A stretch of 33,028 bases of DNA from Planctomycetota bacterium (GTDB lineage Bacteria > Planctomycetota > Planctomycetia > Pirellulales > UBA1268), in NCBI GenBank assembly GCA_003670865.1, contig QWQJ01000067.1:1-33028 (forward strand). The letters run 5' to 3'. The translations under genes and the position numbers were made by a program. The notes beneath the pieces were generated by a model that ran no database searches, had not been told where the DNA came from, and saw nothing but the letters and a program-made list of their open reading frames with translations. Position 1 is the stretch's first letter. Each line of letters opens with the position of its first letter. Of the stretch, positions 26,374 to 33,028 are shown one piece after another.

Positions 26374-27249
26374 TTAGCCCGTCGTGCCCCCATCGATGGC
26401 GATCACTTGGCCGGTGATAAACGCAGCACGAGAACTGGTCAAAAAATCGATCGCGCTGGCAACGTCCCCCGGCAGCCCTAATCGGCCCAGTGGCGTGCGC
26501 TGAATGATTCGCGCCCGATTACTGGCCGAGAGCGATGCTGAAAGATCTGTTTCTAGAAAACCCGGGGCAACCGCGTTGACGCGAATGCCACGCGGCCCAA
26601 GTTCGCGGGCCAAACTTTTTGCAAAGCCCTCCAGCCCGGCTTTGGTGGCCGCGTAAACGGACAGCCCGGGACTTCCTCGCGATGCCACAACAGACGAAAT
26701 CAAAACAATCGAGGGACTTCCGTTGACAACCACATTCGGGCTTGCAGAACCCGCGTCGGTCGATTCATCCAAACGCCGCTGCCCGACCTTGAGTTCGAAG
26801 TCCGACAACGCTGGTTGCACCAGCATCTGCCGCACAGACTCGCGAACAAGCACGATCGATCCTTTGAGATTCACGCTCAGCATCGCTTCAATGTGGTCGT
26901 CGCTGAGAGTCGCCAGAACGCCATCGTAAGCCACCGCTGCATTAGCGATGCAGTGGTCGACATGCCCAAATCGCTCGGTAACTCGGCCCACAAACCCCCG
27001 CAGAGCGTCGGCATCGGCGGCGTCGAGTTGCTCGGCGACGAGCCTGTTTGGATAAGCCACGACAAGTGCGGCAAGAGCCGCCGAGCCGGAGCGAGAGAAT
27101 GTGGCTACGCAATCGCCTCGCTCAAGAAAACGCTCCACAAGGGCCAACCCCAGGCCTCGCGAGCCGCCGGAGATGATCGATGTAGGAGGCATAAAAATGA
27201 TTGCACCTTCTTTGTGGTCAGGAAACTCATCCGCAGCGCGTTTCGTCAT
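26374..27249 (-). CDS. SDR-family oxidoreductase, 3-oxoacyl-ACP reductase (FabG)-like
   Basis: This classical short-chain dehydrogenase probably reduces a 3-keto-acyl group on a carrier protein with NAD(P)H. In 291-residue numbering, the cofactor motif is SIISGGSRGLGLAL (24-37), the NAG-type motif is ANAAVAYDG, and the catalytic residues are Ser185/186, Tyr199 and Lys203 (SVYAATKAG). The C-terminus FITGQVIAIDGGTTG is typical of FabG-like enzymes. About 33 residues (145-178) are inserted before the catalytic Ser strand. ATG 27249 starts 2 bases after the stop of the ligase gene, favouring coupled translation; Met20 (27192) is closer to family N-termini and may be the true start. With the adjacent ligase and acyl carrier protein it likely forms an acyl-group-making unit; a sugar substrate is the alternative. 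Confidence 0.88.
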   Translation of the reverse strand: MTKRAADEFPDHKEGAIIFMPPTSIISGGSRGLGLALVERFLERGDCVATFSRSGSAALAALVVAYPNRLVAEQLDAADADALRGFVGRVTERFGHVDHCIANAAVAYDGVLATLSDDHIEAMLSVNLKGSIVLVRESVRQMLVQPALSDFELKVGQRRLDESTDAGSASPNVVVNGSPSIVLISSVVASRGSPGLSVYAATKAGLEGFAKSLARELGPRGIRVNAVAPGFLETDLSASLSASNRARIIQRTPLGRLGLPGDVASAIDFLTSSRAAFITGQVIAIDGGTTG

Positions 27250-27251
27250 TA

Positions 27252-28643
27252 CTACACCGTCGGACGGCGGGGAATTTTTCCGGCTGGATTGGTGGCAATT
27301 TTTTTTACGATGTCGAGAATGCGGGGAACACTCTGGGGCTCCAGTCCCATTCGACAGGCGGCAAGGGCCGCCGCTCGAATGCTCTCAGGCGACTGCCCCG
27401 CGGGCAGTGGCTCAGAGATGATCACTTCAGCGGCTACAAGCTCACCTGTGATCGCACTTGGCAACCCGTAGACCCGCGCATCGGCTATCCCCAAAACGCC
27501 CCGCAAAAGTTCTTCCGCTCGCCGGGGGAAAACTTTCGCACCGCCGACCACAATCACATCGCTACGACGGCCAGAAAATTCGTAGCGATTGCCTCGCCGT
27601 TCGATAAGATCGCCTGTCGCCACTTCGGTTGTATCACGCGAGAGTTGCACGAGTAACTCTCCGTCGCGACGCATCGAAAGCTTTGCACCGCCGGGGAGCG
27701 TGCGGTTTAGCCAAGCCGCTGGAAATCCCGCCAGGCCATCGCTGACACGAAACACCTCGCCTAACTCCGTCGTAGCGTAGACCTGCGTGATCTTGGCCGC
27801 CGGAAAAAGCTCGTGTGCCTGCGACAGGAGTTGGCCGTCGGCTGCCTCGCCTCCCAGCGTGATGCGGTCGAACGTTAGGCGGGCGAGCGTCGAGCGGTCA
27901 GCCGACGTGATCAATCTCCGCAAGAGTGTCGGCGTGGCTGGGAGAATCGCGATGTGTTCCTCGACGATCGCTCGTGCTACGGTGTCGGGGTCTCGCGATG
28001 CTGGCTGAACCAGTTGTCCGCCTGTTAGTAGAGCCTGCAGCCAGACTTGCAGGCCGGCCCATCGAGCGGCGTCGTACACCAACAGCCAGCCGAGTCCGTG
28101 CCACTGCTCTGCAAGTCGAGACGATGCCAAGAGCGAATCCCACGAATGTTCGATGAGCTTGGGTGGCCCACTTGTGCCTGAGGTGGCGACTACAATCTGT
28201 GCCGCCACGGAGTCAAAGACGCTGCAAGGACGCGCGCTATTGGCATCGCAAGAGAGTTCTAAGCTGTCATCGAGCGTGATCCATTCTCGCAATTCGCCCA
28301 CCAAGTCGCGGGAGTCTTCCACCAAAAATGCTACCGGTACATGCTGCCGACCACAGGCCGCCGCGATCACCACGAGTGACTCGATCTGCTTGGCCCTTGC
28401 GACGATACCAATCGGCCGCATGGCATCGAGTTGCCTTTCAAGCGTGACGATTCTGTCAGCGATTGCAGCGTAATCAATGGTACGACGGTCCTGAGAGCCG
28501 GCCTGCGAAACAATCGCCACACGGTCTGGAAATTGCTGCGCCACAATGCTGATCGCCGCGGCAAGACGGTCTTCAACAGGGGCATCGGCCAAGTGGGCAA
28601 TCGCGGCAGTGGAGGATGTGGTCATAAGGGTATGGATTCCCAT
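27252..28643 (-). CDS. AMP-dependent acyl-CoA/acyl-ACP ligase
   Basis: The 463-residue adenylate-forming enzyme activates a carboxylic acid with ATP and passes it to CoA or a carrier-protein thiol. Core motifs: VATSGTSGPPKLIEHSW (phosphate loop, with Leu where most relatives have Gly), YATTELGEVF, ATGDLIER, GRRSDVIVVGGAKVFP and the catalytic C-terminal lysine in NPAGKIPR. The N-terminal part is short, about 40-60 residues less than typical acyl-CoA synthetases. An ATG at 28625 is an alternative start. The acyl carrier protein gene ends 23 bases upstream and the SDR gene starts 2 bases downstream, so the carrier protein is the likely acceptor. The acid used cannot be told from sequence; the setting suggests a short or hydroxylated acyl group for a sugar amine. 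Confidence 0.9.
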   Translation of the reverse strand: MGIHTLMTTSSTAAIAHLADAPVEDRLAAAISIVAQQFPDRVAIVSQAGSQDRRTIDYAAIADRIVTLERQLDAMRPIGIVARAKQIESLVVIAAACGRQHVPVAFLVEDSRDLVGELREWITLDDSLELSCDANSARPCSVFDSVAAQIVVATSGTSGPPKLIEHSWDSLLASSRLAEQWHGLGWLLVYDAARWAGLQVWLQALLTGGQLVQPASRDPDTVARAIVEEHIAILPATPTLLRRLITSADRSTLARLTFDRITLGGEAADGQLLSQAHELFPAAKITQVYATTELGEVFRVSDGLAGFPAAWLNRTLPGGAKLSMRRDGELLVQLSRDTTEVATGDLIERRGNRYEFSGRRSDVIVVGGAKVFPRRAEELLRGVLGIADARVYGLPSAITGELVAAEVIISEPLPAGQSPESIRAAALAACRMGLEPQSVPRILDIVKKIATNPAGKIPRRPTV

Positions 28644-28666
28644 TCTTTGACGGAATGACGATTGAT

Positions 28667-28930
28667 TTATTGAGACGCGATGGCGGTGGAATAGATCGCG
28701 ATTAAGTCAGCCACCGTTCGGATGCTCGGGCGGGCAGACCCGGCCAATGGAGTGCGAAAGGGATCGATCCCCAGCGAACGCTCAAGCAAAACGATGGCCT
28801 GCGCGATATCAAGCGAGTCGAAACCCAGATCGGACGAAAGCAGCATCGACGGCTCAATCACTTTCCTATCACGGCCCGTGTCGTGCAGAACGGTGCGAAT
28901 CGCATCGGCAATGGAGTCAGAGAGAGACAT
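28667..28930 (-). CDS. Acyl carrier protein
   Basis: The 87-residue acidic helical protein has the phosphopantetheine attachment motif LGFDSLD, with Ser39 as the modified residue, and the usual four-helix pattern. Carrier proteins hold acyl groups as thioesters for modification and transfer. Loop 2 has an unusual stretch (about 54-68, with FRTPLAGSARPS) before the last helix. It is not in a fatty-acid synthesis cluster; it sits between the sugar-1-phosphate transferase gene (27-base gap) and the acid ligase gene (23-base gap), so it is likely a dedicated carrier for the ligase/SDR pair rather than the housekeeping AcpP. Confidence 0.92.
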   Translation of the reverse strand: MSLSDSIADAIRTVLHDTGRDRKVIEPSMLLSSDLGFDSLDIAQAIVLLERSLGIDPFRTPLAGSARPSIRTVADLIAIYSTAIASQ

Positions 28931-28957: not shown

Positions 28958-29629
28958 TTACTGAAATTCTTGCATGGTGGCAGAACCCGGGGCAGCGATG
29001 CCTCGAGCTGTCAGTGCCTGCCAGATGATTTGAAAGAGTGTAGCCACAAGGATCCAAAGGTCTAAGAGCGGCGCATACCATCGCCCCAGCATTTCCACAT
29101 AGGTGGCATCTAATTCCAGTCGCGTGGGCCAGTCAATCGCATTCCGGCCGCGAATTTGTGCCCATCCAGAAAGCCCCGGCCGCACCAAGAGCCTCGTCGC
29201 CTGCCGCCGCGAATAACGGGGAATGTATCGCATCGGCAGTGGTCGCGGCCCAATCAGGCTCATGTCGCCAGACAACACGCTCAAGAGTTGCGGCAATTCA
29301 TCAAGGCTTGTGCAGCGGAGAATTTTGCCCGCGAGCCTTAGTCGCTGGGCATCGGGAAGAGGTTCACCATCCAGACCGGTTGCAGTACTCATGGAACGAA
29401 ACTTGGCAATCAGAATCGGTCTCCCGTTTTGACCAGCCCGCTCGTCAAGATAAAGCACCGGCTTACCAAGCACCATGCGCACGACCACCCATGTGGCAAG
29501 CATCAACGGAGTCAGGGCAATGAGGAGCACAGAAGCCCCGAGAATGTCCGCACAACGCTTGAGCCTCGCTGCATAACAGCGATTGCGAAGGTTGTCTGGA
29601 AGTGATTGCGGGGGCGTTGCCTCAAGCAC
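28958..29629 (-). CDS. Polyprenyl-phosphate sugar-1-phosphate transferase, small monotopic (PglC/WcaJ catalytic domain) type
   Basis: This 223-residue enzyme would transfer a sugar 1-phosphate from a UDP-sugar to undecaprenyl phosphate, starting a glycan on the cytoplasmic face of the inner membrane. Family marks: basic LKRCADILGA before a single membrane-embedded helix (about 28-52), AKFRSM, the catalytic Asp-Glu pair D110-E111 in TSLDELPQLLSVL, GDMSLIGPRPL and RPGLSGWAQ. It lacks the extra N-terminal membrane domain of WcaJ/WbaP and so resembles PglC. The start is GTG, with AAAGGA 8 bases upstream; that site overlaps the stop codon of the preceding transferase gene (12-base gap). The aminotransferase in the operon suggests a 4-amino-4,6-dideoxy sugar donor. 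Confidence 0.93.
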   Translation of the reverse strand: MLEATPPQSLPDNLRNRCYAARLKRCADILGASVLLIALTPLMLATWVVVRMVLGKPVLYLDERAGQNGRPILIAKFRSMSTATGLDGEPLPDAQRLRLAGKILRCTSLDELPQLLSVLSGDMSLIGPRPLPMRYIPRYSRRQATRLLVRPGLSGWAQIRGRNAIDWPTRLELDATYVEMLGRWYAPLLDLWILVATLFQIIWQALTARGIAAPGSATMQEFQ

Positions 29630-29641
29630 AAGTGAATTCCT

Positions 29642-30721
29642 TTAGCGGCCTCGATCGGAAAACGACTCGCTGCGTTCTGCAACGAGCACAAGGCCGATCA
29701 GGAGCACCATGCCGATTACGATTGTCGAGAGCACGACATGATCGGCTGTTGTGCGGGCGGTCGGATCAAACAGCGGCATCAACGCAAGAGCAGCGGTCAT
29801 CGCCGCGAGCCCTCCGTACAGGCTCGAGACGCCACGGTGAGACCAACCGGCAATCACGAGGCGCTGGTAGAGGTGGCTGCGATGGGCCTTAAAAATATTT
29901 TCTCGCTTACGCAGTCGGCGGACGATTGTGTAGGCCGTGTCGAAGATGAACGGCCAGAGTGCGACAACGGCAACAGGCATAATCAGATGCACGCTTTTTT
30001 CCGGTACTGACAGCGGCAGCACCGCAATCAGAAAACCACAAAACGCACTCCCGACATCCCCCATAAAAATCCTCGCCGGCGGCCAATTGCAACTGAGAAA
30101 ACCGAGTGCTGCTGCCGCAAAAGCAGCAGCAATCGCCACCACCGCCGGAGCCTGCACCGTCGCCGCGACCAAGGCGATGGCGAGCCCTGCAACGACGGCC
30201 GTGATTCCGGCAATGCCGTCAATGCCGTCCATAAAGTTAAAGGCATTGGTGAGCCCCACGATCCAGAGAAGCGTCAGCGGCCAAGCGGCAAACCCCAAAT
30301 CGATACAGCCAAACGAACCCAGATCCACCTGCCCAACCGGGCCGAGAATCGCAATGGCCATCAGGCCGGCAATCATGTGTATTGAGATTCGGGTGCGGTT
30401 TTTGAGCGATTCAATATCGTCTACCCAACTGATCGCTGCAATCAACAAGGCCGGCAGCATGATGCCGACCACCCGCCAGATTGCTTCTGGATGGAGAATC
30501 GCAGCCAGTAAAGCCCCGCCACTCACGACGGCCACAACGGCAAGACCCCCACCCCGCGGCGTCGTGCGAGTGTGGCTGCTGCGGGAGTTGGGCGTATCGA
30601 CGATCCCACGAGCTCTCGCCCAACTCACGAGCCGCTGCGTGAGCAGAGCCGACCCGACAAGGGCTGTGACACACCACACACACCAAAAGACGAGCACGGG
30701 CCAAAAGATAAACAAGGGCAT
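29642..30721 (-). CDS. MraY/WecA-family polyprenyl-phosphate glycosyl-1-phosphate transferase (WbpL-like)
   Basis: This 359-residue integral membrane enzyme has about ten transmembrane helices and would load an N-acetylhexosamine 1-phosphate onto undecaprenyl phosphate. Signature segments: PNSRSSHTRTTPRGGGLAVV (44-63), Mg-binding SWVDDIESL (D101, D102), NAFNFMDGIDGIAG (159-172), RIFMGDVGSAFCGF (D222) and the basic HRSHLYQRLV loop. The RSSHT-RGGG segment is typical of the WbpL/FnlE-like group, which uses UDP-QuiNAc or UDP-FucNAc, rather than of MraY. It sits between the DegT gene (24 bases upstream) and the monotopic transferase gene (12 bases downstream), so one operon encodes two unrelated priming enzymes. 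Confidence 0.93.
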   Translation of the reverse strand: MPLFIFWPVLVFWCVWCVTALVGSALLTQRLVSWARARGIVDTPNSRSSHTRTTPRGGGLAVVAVVSGGALLAAILHPEAIWRVVGIMLPALLIAAISWVDDIESLKNRTRISIHMIAGLMAIAILGPVGQVDLGSFGCIDLGFAAWPLTLLWIVGLTNAFNFMDGIDGIAGITAVVAGLAIALVAATVQAPAVVAIAAAFAAAALGFLSCNWPPARIFMGDVGSAFCGFLIAVLPLSVPEKSVHLIMPVAVVALWPFIFDTAYTIVRRLRKRENIFKAHRSHLYQRLVIAGWSHRGVSSLYGGLAAMTAALALMPLFDPTARTTADHVVLSTIVIGMVLLIGLVLVAERSESFSDRGR

Positions 30722-30745: not shown

Positions 30746-32029
30746 CTAGAGTGTTTGCTGAACGTGTGCGATTGTTTTACAGATGTCGTCTACGACAGCT
30801 TCATCGACATGCGCTCCCATCGGTAGCGACAGACTGCGGGCCGAGAGGAGTTCGGTGACGGGGAGCGGCCGCATCGGATCATAAAAATGTGCAAACGCTT
30901 TTTGAAGATGGCAGGGTGGATCGTAGTAGGCGCGGGTTTCAATGCCGCGATCGGCCATCTCTCGCCGCAGGGAGTCTCGTGAAATACCAAACTGGGCCGG
31001 ATCGATTGTGATTGAAAAATCTTTATGACTGGACTGACTGCCCGGGGACGTTTCCACAAATCCGATGCCTGGCACCTGACTGAGTTCTTGGCGATAGAGG
31101 GTCGCAATCTGATCGCGCCTAACAACCACGCTGTCGAGGATCGTCAGCGAGGCGAGCCCCAGCGCCGCGCTCAACTCCGGCATCCGGCCGTTGACACCGG
31201 AAAAAAGAGCGTCGTAGGAACCGTCGTTGCCATACTCGCGACCCATCCTCACAAAGTGGGCGAGGCAGTCACAGTTGGTGGCCACAATCCCCCCTTCTCC
31301 AGCCACCAAGAGCTTGGTCGGCGAAAGACTAAAAATTTGCGCGGTGCCGCCTGAGCCAACGGGCTTGCCATGCGAGCTTGCACCGAATCCATGGGCTGCA
31401 TCAATTATCAACGGCAGGCCGTGCTCGGCCGCAATTGCCTCAAGGGCCGGCACATCACAGGGGTTGCCAAAGTTGTGGCAGGCGGAAATTGCAACGGTGT
31501 GCGGCGTGATCGCGGCAGCCACCGTTTGCGGCAGCACATTAGTTGTGGCTGGATCGACCTCGATAAAGACCGGCCGGAGGTTATTCCAGACAACGGCTGC
31601 CGGACCGGCGAGAAATGTATAGCTGGGCATAATCACTTCGCCCATTGGCTGGGTGAGGTCAACGCTCAGAGCCCCATTCAACCGGGAACGCTGTTCCATG
31701 CCAGCAACCCGGCAGTCCGCACGACCGCGATTGTCGCGACAACTCCCCGCCGCGATACCGAGGCTCTTGTAGACAAGCATCAAGCCGACCGTGCAACTGC
31801 TTACAGCCACCGCATGCCGCACGCCGAGTCGCTGGGCGATGGCCTGCTCAAACTTTTGGACATTGGGGCCTTTCGTGAGTTGACCGCTGCAGACAATCTT
31901 TTCAAACTCCTCGTGAAGCAACTCATAGGGGGGCATCATCGGCCGCACAAATGGCACGTGAAAGACGCCGGACGCAGGGTTCTTGGCAGAGGCCGCTGGG
32001 GAAGTGAATGCGAGGGGATTTGTCTGCAT
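30746..32029 (-). CDS. DegT/DnrJ/EryC1/StrS aminotransferase with an in-frame insertion
   Basis: This PLP enzyme would transaminate a 4-keto-6-deoxy UDP-sugar to a 4-amino sugar (PglE/WbpE-like role). From ATG 32029 it has 427 residues, longer than the usual 370-390. Core marks: FEKIVCSGQLTKGPNVQKFE, VSSCTVGLMLVYKSLGI, GEVIMPSYTFLAG, LPLIIDAAHGFGA, and the PLP lysine K239 in SLSPTKLLVAGEGG. Residues 96-129 (rich in Arg, Cys and Asn; SCRDNRGRADCRVAGMEQ and onward) interrupt a segment that is normally continuous between LGI-x-G and GEVIMPS. The longer frame to 32143 overlaps the dehydratase gene and is rejected. Its place after the dehydratase gene (40-base gap) supports a nucleotide-sugar role. 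Confidence 0.9.
   Translation of the reverse strand: MQTNPLAFTSPAASAKNPASGVFHVPFVRPMMPPYELLHEEFEKIVCSGQLTKGPNVQKFEQAIAQRLGVRHAVAVSSCTVGLMLVYKSLGIAAGSCRDNRGRADCRVAGMEQRSRLNGALSVDLTQPMGEVIMPSYTFLAGPAAVVWNNLRPVFIEVDPATTNVLPQTVAAAITPHTVAISACHNFGNPCDVPALEAIAAEHGLPLIIDAAHGFGASSHGKPVGSGGTAQIFSLSPTKLLVAGEGGIVATNCDCLAHFVRMGREYGNDGSYDALFSGVNGRMPELSAALGLASLTILDSVVVRRDQIATLYRQELSQVPGIGFVETSPGSQSSHKDFSITIDPAQFGISRDSLRREMADRGIETRAYYDPPCHLQKAFAHFYDPMRPLPVTELLSARSLSLPMGAHVDEAVVDDICKTIAHVQQTL
31643..31744 (-). repeat. 102-base in-frame insertion with a 12-base palindrome
   Basis: This segment encodes the 34 extra residues of the aminotransferase. It contains the perfect palindrome TTGTCGCGACAA (31731-31742) at its upstream end, the inverted repeat GGAAC-AGC-GTTCC, and two near-identical copies of CCGGGTTG/CCCGGTTG. 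An in-frame, palindrome-bearing insertion of about 100 bases resembles the known class of palindromic elements that insert in Rickettsia coding genes. No second copy was seen in this window, so repeat status is unproven. Confidence 0.4.
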
Positions 32030-32069
32030 CTTGGGTAACGTTTTAAACTCGGATTCGACTGGGATTGTG

Positions 32070-33028
32070 TTAGGCAAGGGTTTCTGTGCTGGGACCTTTT
32101 TGTCTGTCAGCCACCGGCCGTAGCGGCCTCCCTTCGAGACCATACTCTGGCACGAGATCGCGCAGGCGAGTTCTTACGATTTCGGGTGGCTCGTCGAGGA
32201 GAGTCGTCAGGTCCTCTAAGAGTGCTTCGACGGCGGCTAGCTCGGCCGGCCTGTGCATCGCACAAAACACCTTGGGATGCTTAGTGTGCACGCGCCGCTC
32301 CTCATCAAAATAGAGTTCCTCGTAGAGCTTTTCACCAGGACGCAAGCCTGTAAAAACAATTTCGATGGTCTCTTCGTCAAGGCCTGATAAGGCGATTAAG
32401 TCACGGGCGAGGTCAACGATTTTAACGCTTTCACCCATGTCGAGCACGAAGATTTCTCCTCCGTCCCCCATCGCTGCGGATTGCAGCACGAGTTGCGACG
32501 CCTCGGGAATCGTCATGAAGTAGCGTTCAATCAAAGGATCCGTAACCGTGACTGGCCCGCCGCGGCGAATCTGCTCCTGAAAGATCGGCACAACACTGCC
32601 ATTGCTGGCGAGCACATTGCCAAATCGCACAACAATAAATTTGGTTTTGGATTCCTTGGCAAGCGCGTGGACAAAACGCTCCGCAATCAGCTTCGAACAA
32701 CCCATCACGCTCGTGGGATTGACGGCCTTGTCGGTTGAAATCATGACAAACTCTCGCACTCCATGCCGGTCGGCGAGGCGGGCTAACGACTGCGTCCCAA
32801 GGCAATTGTTTTTAATCGCTTCGGCTGGATTCCACTCCATCATAGGCACATGCTTGTGGGCAGCGGCGTGAAAGACAACATCGGGGCGATGTGTGACGAT
32901 AATCTGCTCCATCCGAGGCTCGTCAGTGATGTCAGCCAAGAGCGGTTCAAACGATGGACGCGGCTGGGCACGAGCAAATTCCTGCTCGATGAGAAACAGA
33001 GCGTTTTCACCCCGCTCGACCAACAGCA
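32070..33028 (-). CDS. Nucleotide-sugar 4,6-dehydratase, FlaA1/WbpM/CapD type, C-terminal part (5' end beyond right edge)
   Basis: The frame is open through the right edge, so the start and probably an N-terminal membrane domain lie outside. The visible ~319 residues form the catalytic extended-SDR half of the WbpM/PglF/FlaA1 family, which turns UDP-GlcNAc into UDP-4-keto-6-deoxy-GlcNAc (or its L-ido epimer). Marks: VVFHAAAHKHVPMMEWNP, EFVMISTDKAVNPTSVMG, then GCSKLIAE with Met in place of the usual active-site Tyr, as is normal for this family, VRFGNVLASNGSVVPIF, GGPVTVTDP, ERYFMTIPEASQLVLQSA and FTGLRPGEKLYEELYF. Its product would feed both the DegT aminotransferase and the WbpV-like reductase. 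It is the most upstream visible gene of the seven-gene operon. Confidence 0.95.
   Translation of the reverse strand, partial: LLVERGENALFLIEQEFARAQPRPSFEPLLADITDEPRMEQIIVTHRPDVVFHAAAHKHVPMMEWNPAEAIKNNCLGTQSLARLADRHGVREFVMISTDKAVNPTSVMGCSKLIAERFVHALAKESKTKFIVVRFGNVLASNGSVVPIFQEQIRRGGPVTVTDPLIERYFMTIPEASQLVLQSAAMGDGGEIFVLDMGESVKIVDLARDLIALSGLDEETIEIVFTGLRPGEKLYEELYFDEERRVHTKHPKVFCAMHRPAELAAVEALLEDLTTLLDEPPEIVRTRLRDLVPEYGLEGRPLRPVADRQKGPSTETLA

Follow-up and report, generated by a model that had tools for sequence, protein, structure and literature searches.

The operon described here quite probably directs the synthesis of a 4-amino-6-deoxy sugar that is linked to a lipid and N-acylated with a non-standard group, for which a trio of genes, encoding a dedicated acyl carrier protein (ACP), an AMP-forming ligase and a FabG-like reductase of the SDR type, would supply the acyl donor. 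Carrier-based N-acylation of 4-amino sugars with a ketoacyl synthase is already known; on the best reading, what is new here is a ligase in the place of the synthase. Antigenicity and surface properties depend on the N-acyl groups of amino sugars, yet the group that is made can seldom be read from a genome.

In the proposed pathway the 4,6-dehydratase and the DegT-family aminotransferase would generate a nucleotide-linked 4-amino-4,6-dideoxy sugar, and the ligase, with ATP, would activate a free short acid that is then loaded on the dedicated ACP. The FabG-like SDR would convert the keto-acyl thioester into hydroxyacyl-ACP. A PglD/VioB-like enzyme with a left-handed beta-helix fold, whose gene lies on another contig (C23) in this genome, would take the acyl group over from the ACP and place it on the nitrogen at position 4 of the sugar, and the PglC-like enzyme would attach the finished sugar phosphate to the polyprenyl carrier used for an exported polysaccharide. 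We infer that the ligase charges the ACP of this operon and that the SDR works on an acyl thioester. The transferase is likewise presumed to accept acyl-ACP, a step that can only be inferred since the solved VioB, PerB and PglD enzymes use acetyl-CoA.

Gene content and setting of the operon

The window, i.e., the whole stretch of DNA that was analysed, comprises all 33,028 bases of contig QWQJ01000067.1 (C8) from an assembly of 2.29 Mb that is 81% complete. Seven minus-strand genes follow one another from its right edge:

32070..33026, minus strand: WbpM/PglF-type nucleotide-sugar 4,6-dehydratase, N-terminus cut (Polysacc_synt_2, PF02719, 4e-103)
30746..32143, minus strand: DegT-family sugar aminotransferase (PF01041, 7e-94; PLP lysine K277)
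29642..30721, minus strand: WecA/MraY-like sugar-phosphate transferase (Glycos_transf_4, PF00953, 2e-35; WecA profile, 4e-28)
28958..29629, minus strand: PglC-like polyprenyl-phosphate sugar-1-phosphate transferase (Bac_transf, PF02397, 1e-47)
28667..28930, minus strand: dedicated ACP, 87 aa (PP-binding, PF00550, 22.9 bits at a cut-off of 20.8; phosphopantetheine Ser39 in GFDSLD)
27252..28643, minus strand: putative AMP-forming acyl-ACP ligase, 463 aa (AMP-binding, 1e-16, plus AMP-binding_C)
26374..27249, minus strand: FabG-like SDR of the 3-oxoacyl-ACP reductase type, 291 aa (adh_short_C2, 2e-48)

The earlier note had described ACP, AMP-forming ligase and FabG-like SDR genes behind the sugar genes, and all of them were found where it had placed them, matched the respective Pfam families and were separated by gaps of 2–27 nt. 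The intergenic distances are 24 nt between DegT and WecA, 12 nt between WecA and PglC, 27 nt between PglC and the ACP, 23 nt between the ACP and the ligase, and 2 nt between the ligase and the SDR; the dehydratase and DegT reading frames overlap when the first ATG of DegT is taken as the start. Because the window is the entire contig, the N-terminus of the dehydratase is truncated at the contig end, its full-length relatives being about 630–660 aa long. Promoter and terminator scans returned nothing above chance. Past the SDR, the minus strand continues after 219 nt with a gene unrelated to the operon (26154-21190), which was judged from its own sequence to encode a PVC-type cytochrome protein.

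The residues expected of active enzymes are kept in alignments with relatives. K277 of DegT is invariant, and the best profiles and structures for this protein are mostly C4 aminotransferases (DesI, ArnB, WbpE, perosamine synthetase). An insertion in DegT was first suspected to reflect a frameshift, but similar inserts occur in several relatives from the same family. Ser39 of the ACP is invariant in an alignment with 16 homologues. In the ligase, E293, D345, R359 and the C-terminal Lys456 are invariant and the TSGTSG-type phosphate-binding loop is conserved. Its predicted model has the ANL fold (pLDDT 84) with nearest PDB folds of 16–21% identity, including the carrier-loading enzymes EntE, PchD, PltF and VinM; the model points to no substrate, since the fold is a plain ANL one and no listed match exceeds 21% identity. 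In the SDR, which may start at an internal Met about 57 nt downstream, S186, Y199, K203, the glycine motif and R53 are invariant, and the best PDB match is MupS, followed by FabGs. The window SDR also has an insertion of about 30 residues ahead of the catalytic Ser, longer than in any aligned relative.

Distribution in the family and the probable partner acyltransferase

The ligase was found in 36 of the 48 genomes of the uncultured planctomycete family to which this genome belongs, with 59–77% identity among full-length copies, and in 31 of these 36 PglC lies directly upstream, the coordinates leaving space for the ACP alone between them; the association of these genes is therefore not a matter of chance. 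The order conserved in the family is NusG-like gene, dehydratase, DegT, (WecA), PglC, ACP, ligase, SDR, a gene with PglD_N and Hexapep domains, and glycosyltransferases, with a divergent polysaccharide-export gene (Pfam) upstream. The WecA-like gene was not detected between DegT and PglC at four loci (L038, L039, L050, L061) and is hence optional. Departures from the position behind PglC are a contig fragment with ligase, SDR and PglD-like genes (G003), a trio accompanied by PglD-like, glycosyltransferase and nucleotidyltransferase genes (G030), and the genus g6 (G008, G017, G024), where the neighbours of the trio are GFO/IDH, alanine-dehydrogenase and MtnA-like genes. Thus a trio without sugar genes, which the earlier note had named as the finding that would speak against a role in glycan synthesis if it prevailed in relatives, is limited to 3 of the 36 family genomes, all of genus g6. 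In one of them, G024, a 6.7-kb unit GFO/IDH-AlaDH-MtnA-like-ACP-ligase-SDR is repeated in tandem in almost identical form, giving two copies (L030, 1530-14357); its occurrence as a single copy in G008 speaks for a real layout, whereas the duplication may be an assembly effect. Another family genome, G016, has a second ligase and SDR pair without an ACP, adjoining a C-terminal remnant of a PglD-like gene (L031, 301-2942).

In most family relatives the gene after the SDR encodes a PglD/VioB-like hexapeptide protein (Pfam). The earlier note had suspected an acyltransferase gene beyond the right edge of the window; that edge is the upstream end of the minus-strand operon, the usual place of the gene is downstream of the SDR, and in this genome it lies outside the operon, on contig C23 (7426-8124). 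A PglD/VioB-like gene is present in 29 of the 36 ligase-positive family genomes versus none of the 12 ligase-negative ones (Fisher p = 7e-7, in a test on related genomes in which genus g3 supplies six of the 12 negatives, and with a 29%-identical match in G015 left out of the count as part of a PglC-PglD-DegT fusion). No transferase was seen in the remaining seven ligase-positive genomes, some of them with cut contigs. The closest solved structures of the transferase are VioB, the perosamine N-acetyltransferase PerB, and PglD, all of which act on 4-amino sugars. Its invariant His aligns with the PerB His replaced in structures 4eaa and 4eab, which we take to be His141.

Gene fusions point in the same direction. 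In two genomes of family f14 (G060, G076) a 303-aa PglD-ACP fusion lies directly upstream of the ligase and SDR, and another PglD-ACP fusion, after PglC, was found in G731 (f15), the only true one among three further candidates; G569 and G466 were rejected, having two adjacent genes each. The window ACP shares 40% identity over 83 aa with the ACP domain that is fused to PglD in G060 (E 1e-19); the matches found at further ACP loci in the window's genome are more distant, the best of them reaching only 4e-5. The order PglC-ACP-ligase-SDR-PglD-like (LbH) recurs outside the family (G522 of f7; L176). In family f19 (L064, L178, L180) one glycan cluster contains PglC and then PglD-like (LbH)-ACP-SDR-ligase beside KASIII-ACP-SDR-PglD-like (LbH), which is a ligase-primed and a synthase-primed version together. 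At least six changes of the PglD-like label are forced on well supported branches of the ligase tree, so the pairing of ligase and PglD-like gene arose more than once. Taken together, the neighbourhoods and fusions tie the carrier, ligase and reductase to sugar N-acylation. The proposal that a special acyl group for the DegT-made amino sugar comes from the trio is supported, at the level of genome comparison, by the position and co-occurrence of the transferase and by the PglD-ACP fusions. The phylum-wide search with the ligase profile yielded few close relatives outside the order, most matches being judged generic AMP ligases.

In the ligase-negative genomes G004 and G015 the place of the trio is taken by a PglC-PglD-DegT fusion, which is the enzyme set and layout of the ordinary bacillosamine pathway. 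The fusions recorded in trio-less planctomycetes lie at L156 (7786-10833, 1015 aa), where the protein additionally contains a glycosyltransferase domain, and at L157 (9840-12275, 811 aa).

Related cassettes in other lineages

A scan of named genomes gave 80 loci, 79 of them with the ligase, and in 62 of the 79 an ACP and an SDR lie within two genes of it; these loci were found via the ligase, at identities down to 31–40%, and their function may differ. Ten loci, e.g., that of Alteromonas genovensis, adjoining flagellin, have pseudaminic-acid-type genes and a GNAT beside the cassette, eight have an MBOAT, and nine outside the planctomycete family have hexapeptide proteins; MBOAT genes were seen with related cassettes at L092 and L072. 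The pseudaminic-acid/GNAT, MBOAT and MetY settings are spread over many phyla. A second ligase, often with MetY-type genes, lies beside the cassette at 23 of the 79 loci, and so the cassettes outside the family are not tied to sugars.

We hold it to be evenly poised whether the ACP-ligase-SDR set serves generally as a plug-in source of acyl donors that several phyla, possibly including Asgard archaea, have recruited more than once. Such a cassette would feed non-acetyl groups to three kinds of transferase that are unrelated to one another, namely PglD/VioB-like enzymes (as in this operon), GNATs of pseudaminic-acid clusters and MBOATs, as a carrier-based alternative to acyl-CoA for surface sugars that is annotated as fatty-acid synthesis. 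If so, an ACP-ligase-SDR set beside a PglD, GNAT or MBOAT gene would predict a non-acetyl acyl group from sequence alone, and acyl-ACP would join acyl-CoA as a donor for PglD/VioB-like enzymes. The prediction would extend to planctomycetes, about whose surface glycans little is known, as well as to the flagellar pseudaminic-acid clusters of Alteromonas-type bacteria.

The A. genovensis locus (L096, 1624-10752) has ACP-ligase-SDR behind flagellin, PseB-like, PseC-like, CMP-transferase, NeuB and GNAT genes, and likely represents a non-acetyl pseudaminic acid pathway; Paraglaciecola, Lacimicrobium and Rheinheimera loci have a similar layout. At L149 (4470-13934) and similar loci of Acidobacteria and Proteobacteria, ACP-ligase-SDR is accompanied by a second AMP ligase, a PLP decarboxylase, a MetY-type and a haem-oxygenase-like gene. 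A Heimdallarchaeota-labelled contig, possibly a contamination, carries a divergent hexapeptide protein gene followed by ACP, ligase, SDR and phosphopantetheinyl transferase genes (L104, 322-4195). In another planctomycete family, ligase-SDR-ACP lies beside a polyketide-synthase-like gene for 2,553 aa (L065, 3-10299).

Comparison with known systems and the likely acyl group

The viosamine island of Pseudomonas syringae (vioA, vioB, vioR, vioS, acp) is responsible for N-(3-hydroxybutyryl)-viosamine, a product lost in a vioR mutant (PMC3927599). The analogy drawn with it in the earlier note stands for the dedicated ACP, the FabG-like reductase, the VioB-type N-acyltransferase and the DegT aminotransferase, but not for the start of the acyl chain, which is made there by the ketoacyl synthase VioS, without a ligase; the island also directs a dTDP sugar onto flagellin and is without PglC or a WbpM-type dehydratase (PMC3927599). 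The O-antigen R-group genes wfpB-wfpG of Flavobacterium psychrophilum, the product of which is Qui2NAc4N with 3,5-dihydroxyhexanoyl on N4, share with the planctomycete system a PglC homologue, PglE/PglF enzymes, a dedicated ACP, a ketoacyl-ACP reductase and a PglD homologue, but include two ketoacyl synthases (wfpC, wfpE) and no AMP-forming ligase (PMC6519341). Thus, of the vio/wfp-type components, the window's genome has the ACP with its phosphopantetheine serine, the Ser-Tyr-Lys reductase and the VioB/PglD-like transferase (C23); no ketoacyl-ACP synthase was found in the window operon, which has the AMP-forming ligase instead, or at that spot in the family loci.

The bacillosamine pathway of Campylobacter and Neisseria (PglF/PglE/PglD/PglC) uses the same four enzyme types, and the operon itself contains the PglF-type dehydratase, the PglE-type aminotransferase and the PglC-type transferase. 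That pathway, however, takes acetyl from acetyl-CoA and is without ACP, ligase and reductase, and the trio would argue against an N4 acetyl group from acetyl-CoA in this operon. The Aeromonas group II island for flagellar glycosylation (orf1-3) resembles the planctomycete operon in having ACP, 3-oxoacyl-ACP reductase and AMP-dependent synthetase genes beside a sugar N-acyltransferase gene, pseH, but belongs to a pseudaminic acid pathway with luxE/luxC, and its authors regard the three as fatty-acid genes (PMC7874193). The combination of pse genes and luxE/luxC with ACP, reductase and synthetase was not found in the operon, nor was an MBOAT acyltransferase, so that it does not have the make-up of a Dlt-like surface acylation system. 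No N-acyl sugar module that starts from a ligase and is associated with PglC and a PglD/VioB-like gene was found in the literature searched, most subscription papers being outside its scope.

A short 3-hydroxyacyl, e.g., 3-hydroxybutyryl, is tentatively put forward as the likeliest acyl group, although the chance that it is the right one is clearly below even. What speaks for it is that FabG-like enzymes produce groups of this kind and, by analogy, that the characterised look-alikes yield N-3-hydroxybutyryl (PMC3927599) and 3,5-dihydroxyhexanoyl (PMC6519341) groups. In the substrate tunnel, a position that is Gly in 4-chlorobenzoate ligase and FadD10 is Ala in most cassette ligases, a slight hint of a short acyl. 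Should the ligase accept an acid that already carries its hydroxyl group, a different role would fall to the SDR.

Other readings of the trio were considered. That the ligase loads an amino acid or another acid (e.g., alanyl), transferred unreduced, with the SDR acting on the sugar or elsewhere, is improbable. PltF and DltA, free-standing adenylation enzymes for the loading of amino acids, have the same fold, and the family ligase has Asp191 in what is presumably the region where amino-acid-loading adenylation enzymes bind the amino group, which we counted in favour of this reading; amino-acid activation read from this residue was, however, weakened by its variation in the wider cassette (K, Q, P or G). 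Unreduced transfer fits poorly with an SDR that accompanies the ligase and ACP at nearly all family loci as well as at the 62 named ones; this company, together with a best match to an ACP-dependent ketoreductase, assigns the SDR to the carrier pathway.

The generic annotation of the genes, and the fatty-acid interpretation of the Aeromonas ACP, reductase and AMP-dependent synthetase (PMC7874193), would suit a trio devoted to the synthesis or channelling of longer fatty acids that end up in a lipid or lipo-sugar, with the proximity of PglC incidental. We consider this quite unlikely: the operon contains no ketoacyl synthase, luxC or luxE, and the type II fatty-acid synthesis genes looked for (condensing enzyme, dehydratase/enoyl reductase) are absent from it; the Ala for Gly replacement would narrow the ligase tunnel, and the PglD-ACP fusions point to sugar N-acylation. 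It is very improbable that the trio is part of an unrelated small-molecule pathway carried into a glycan operon. Related cassettes do occur beside MetY/PLP-decarboxylase genes (23 loci), beside the PKS-like gene of L065 and, in genus g6, beside amino-acid metabolism genes, but the gene order is kept through the whole family at 59–77% ligase identity, the trio co-occurs with the transferase, and families f7, f14 and f19 show it in separate placements next to PglC and PglD.
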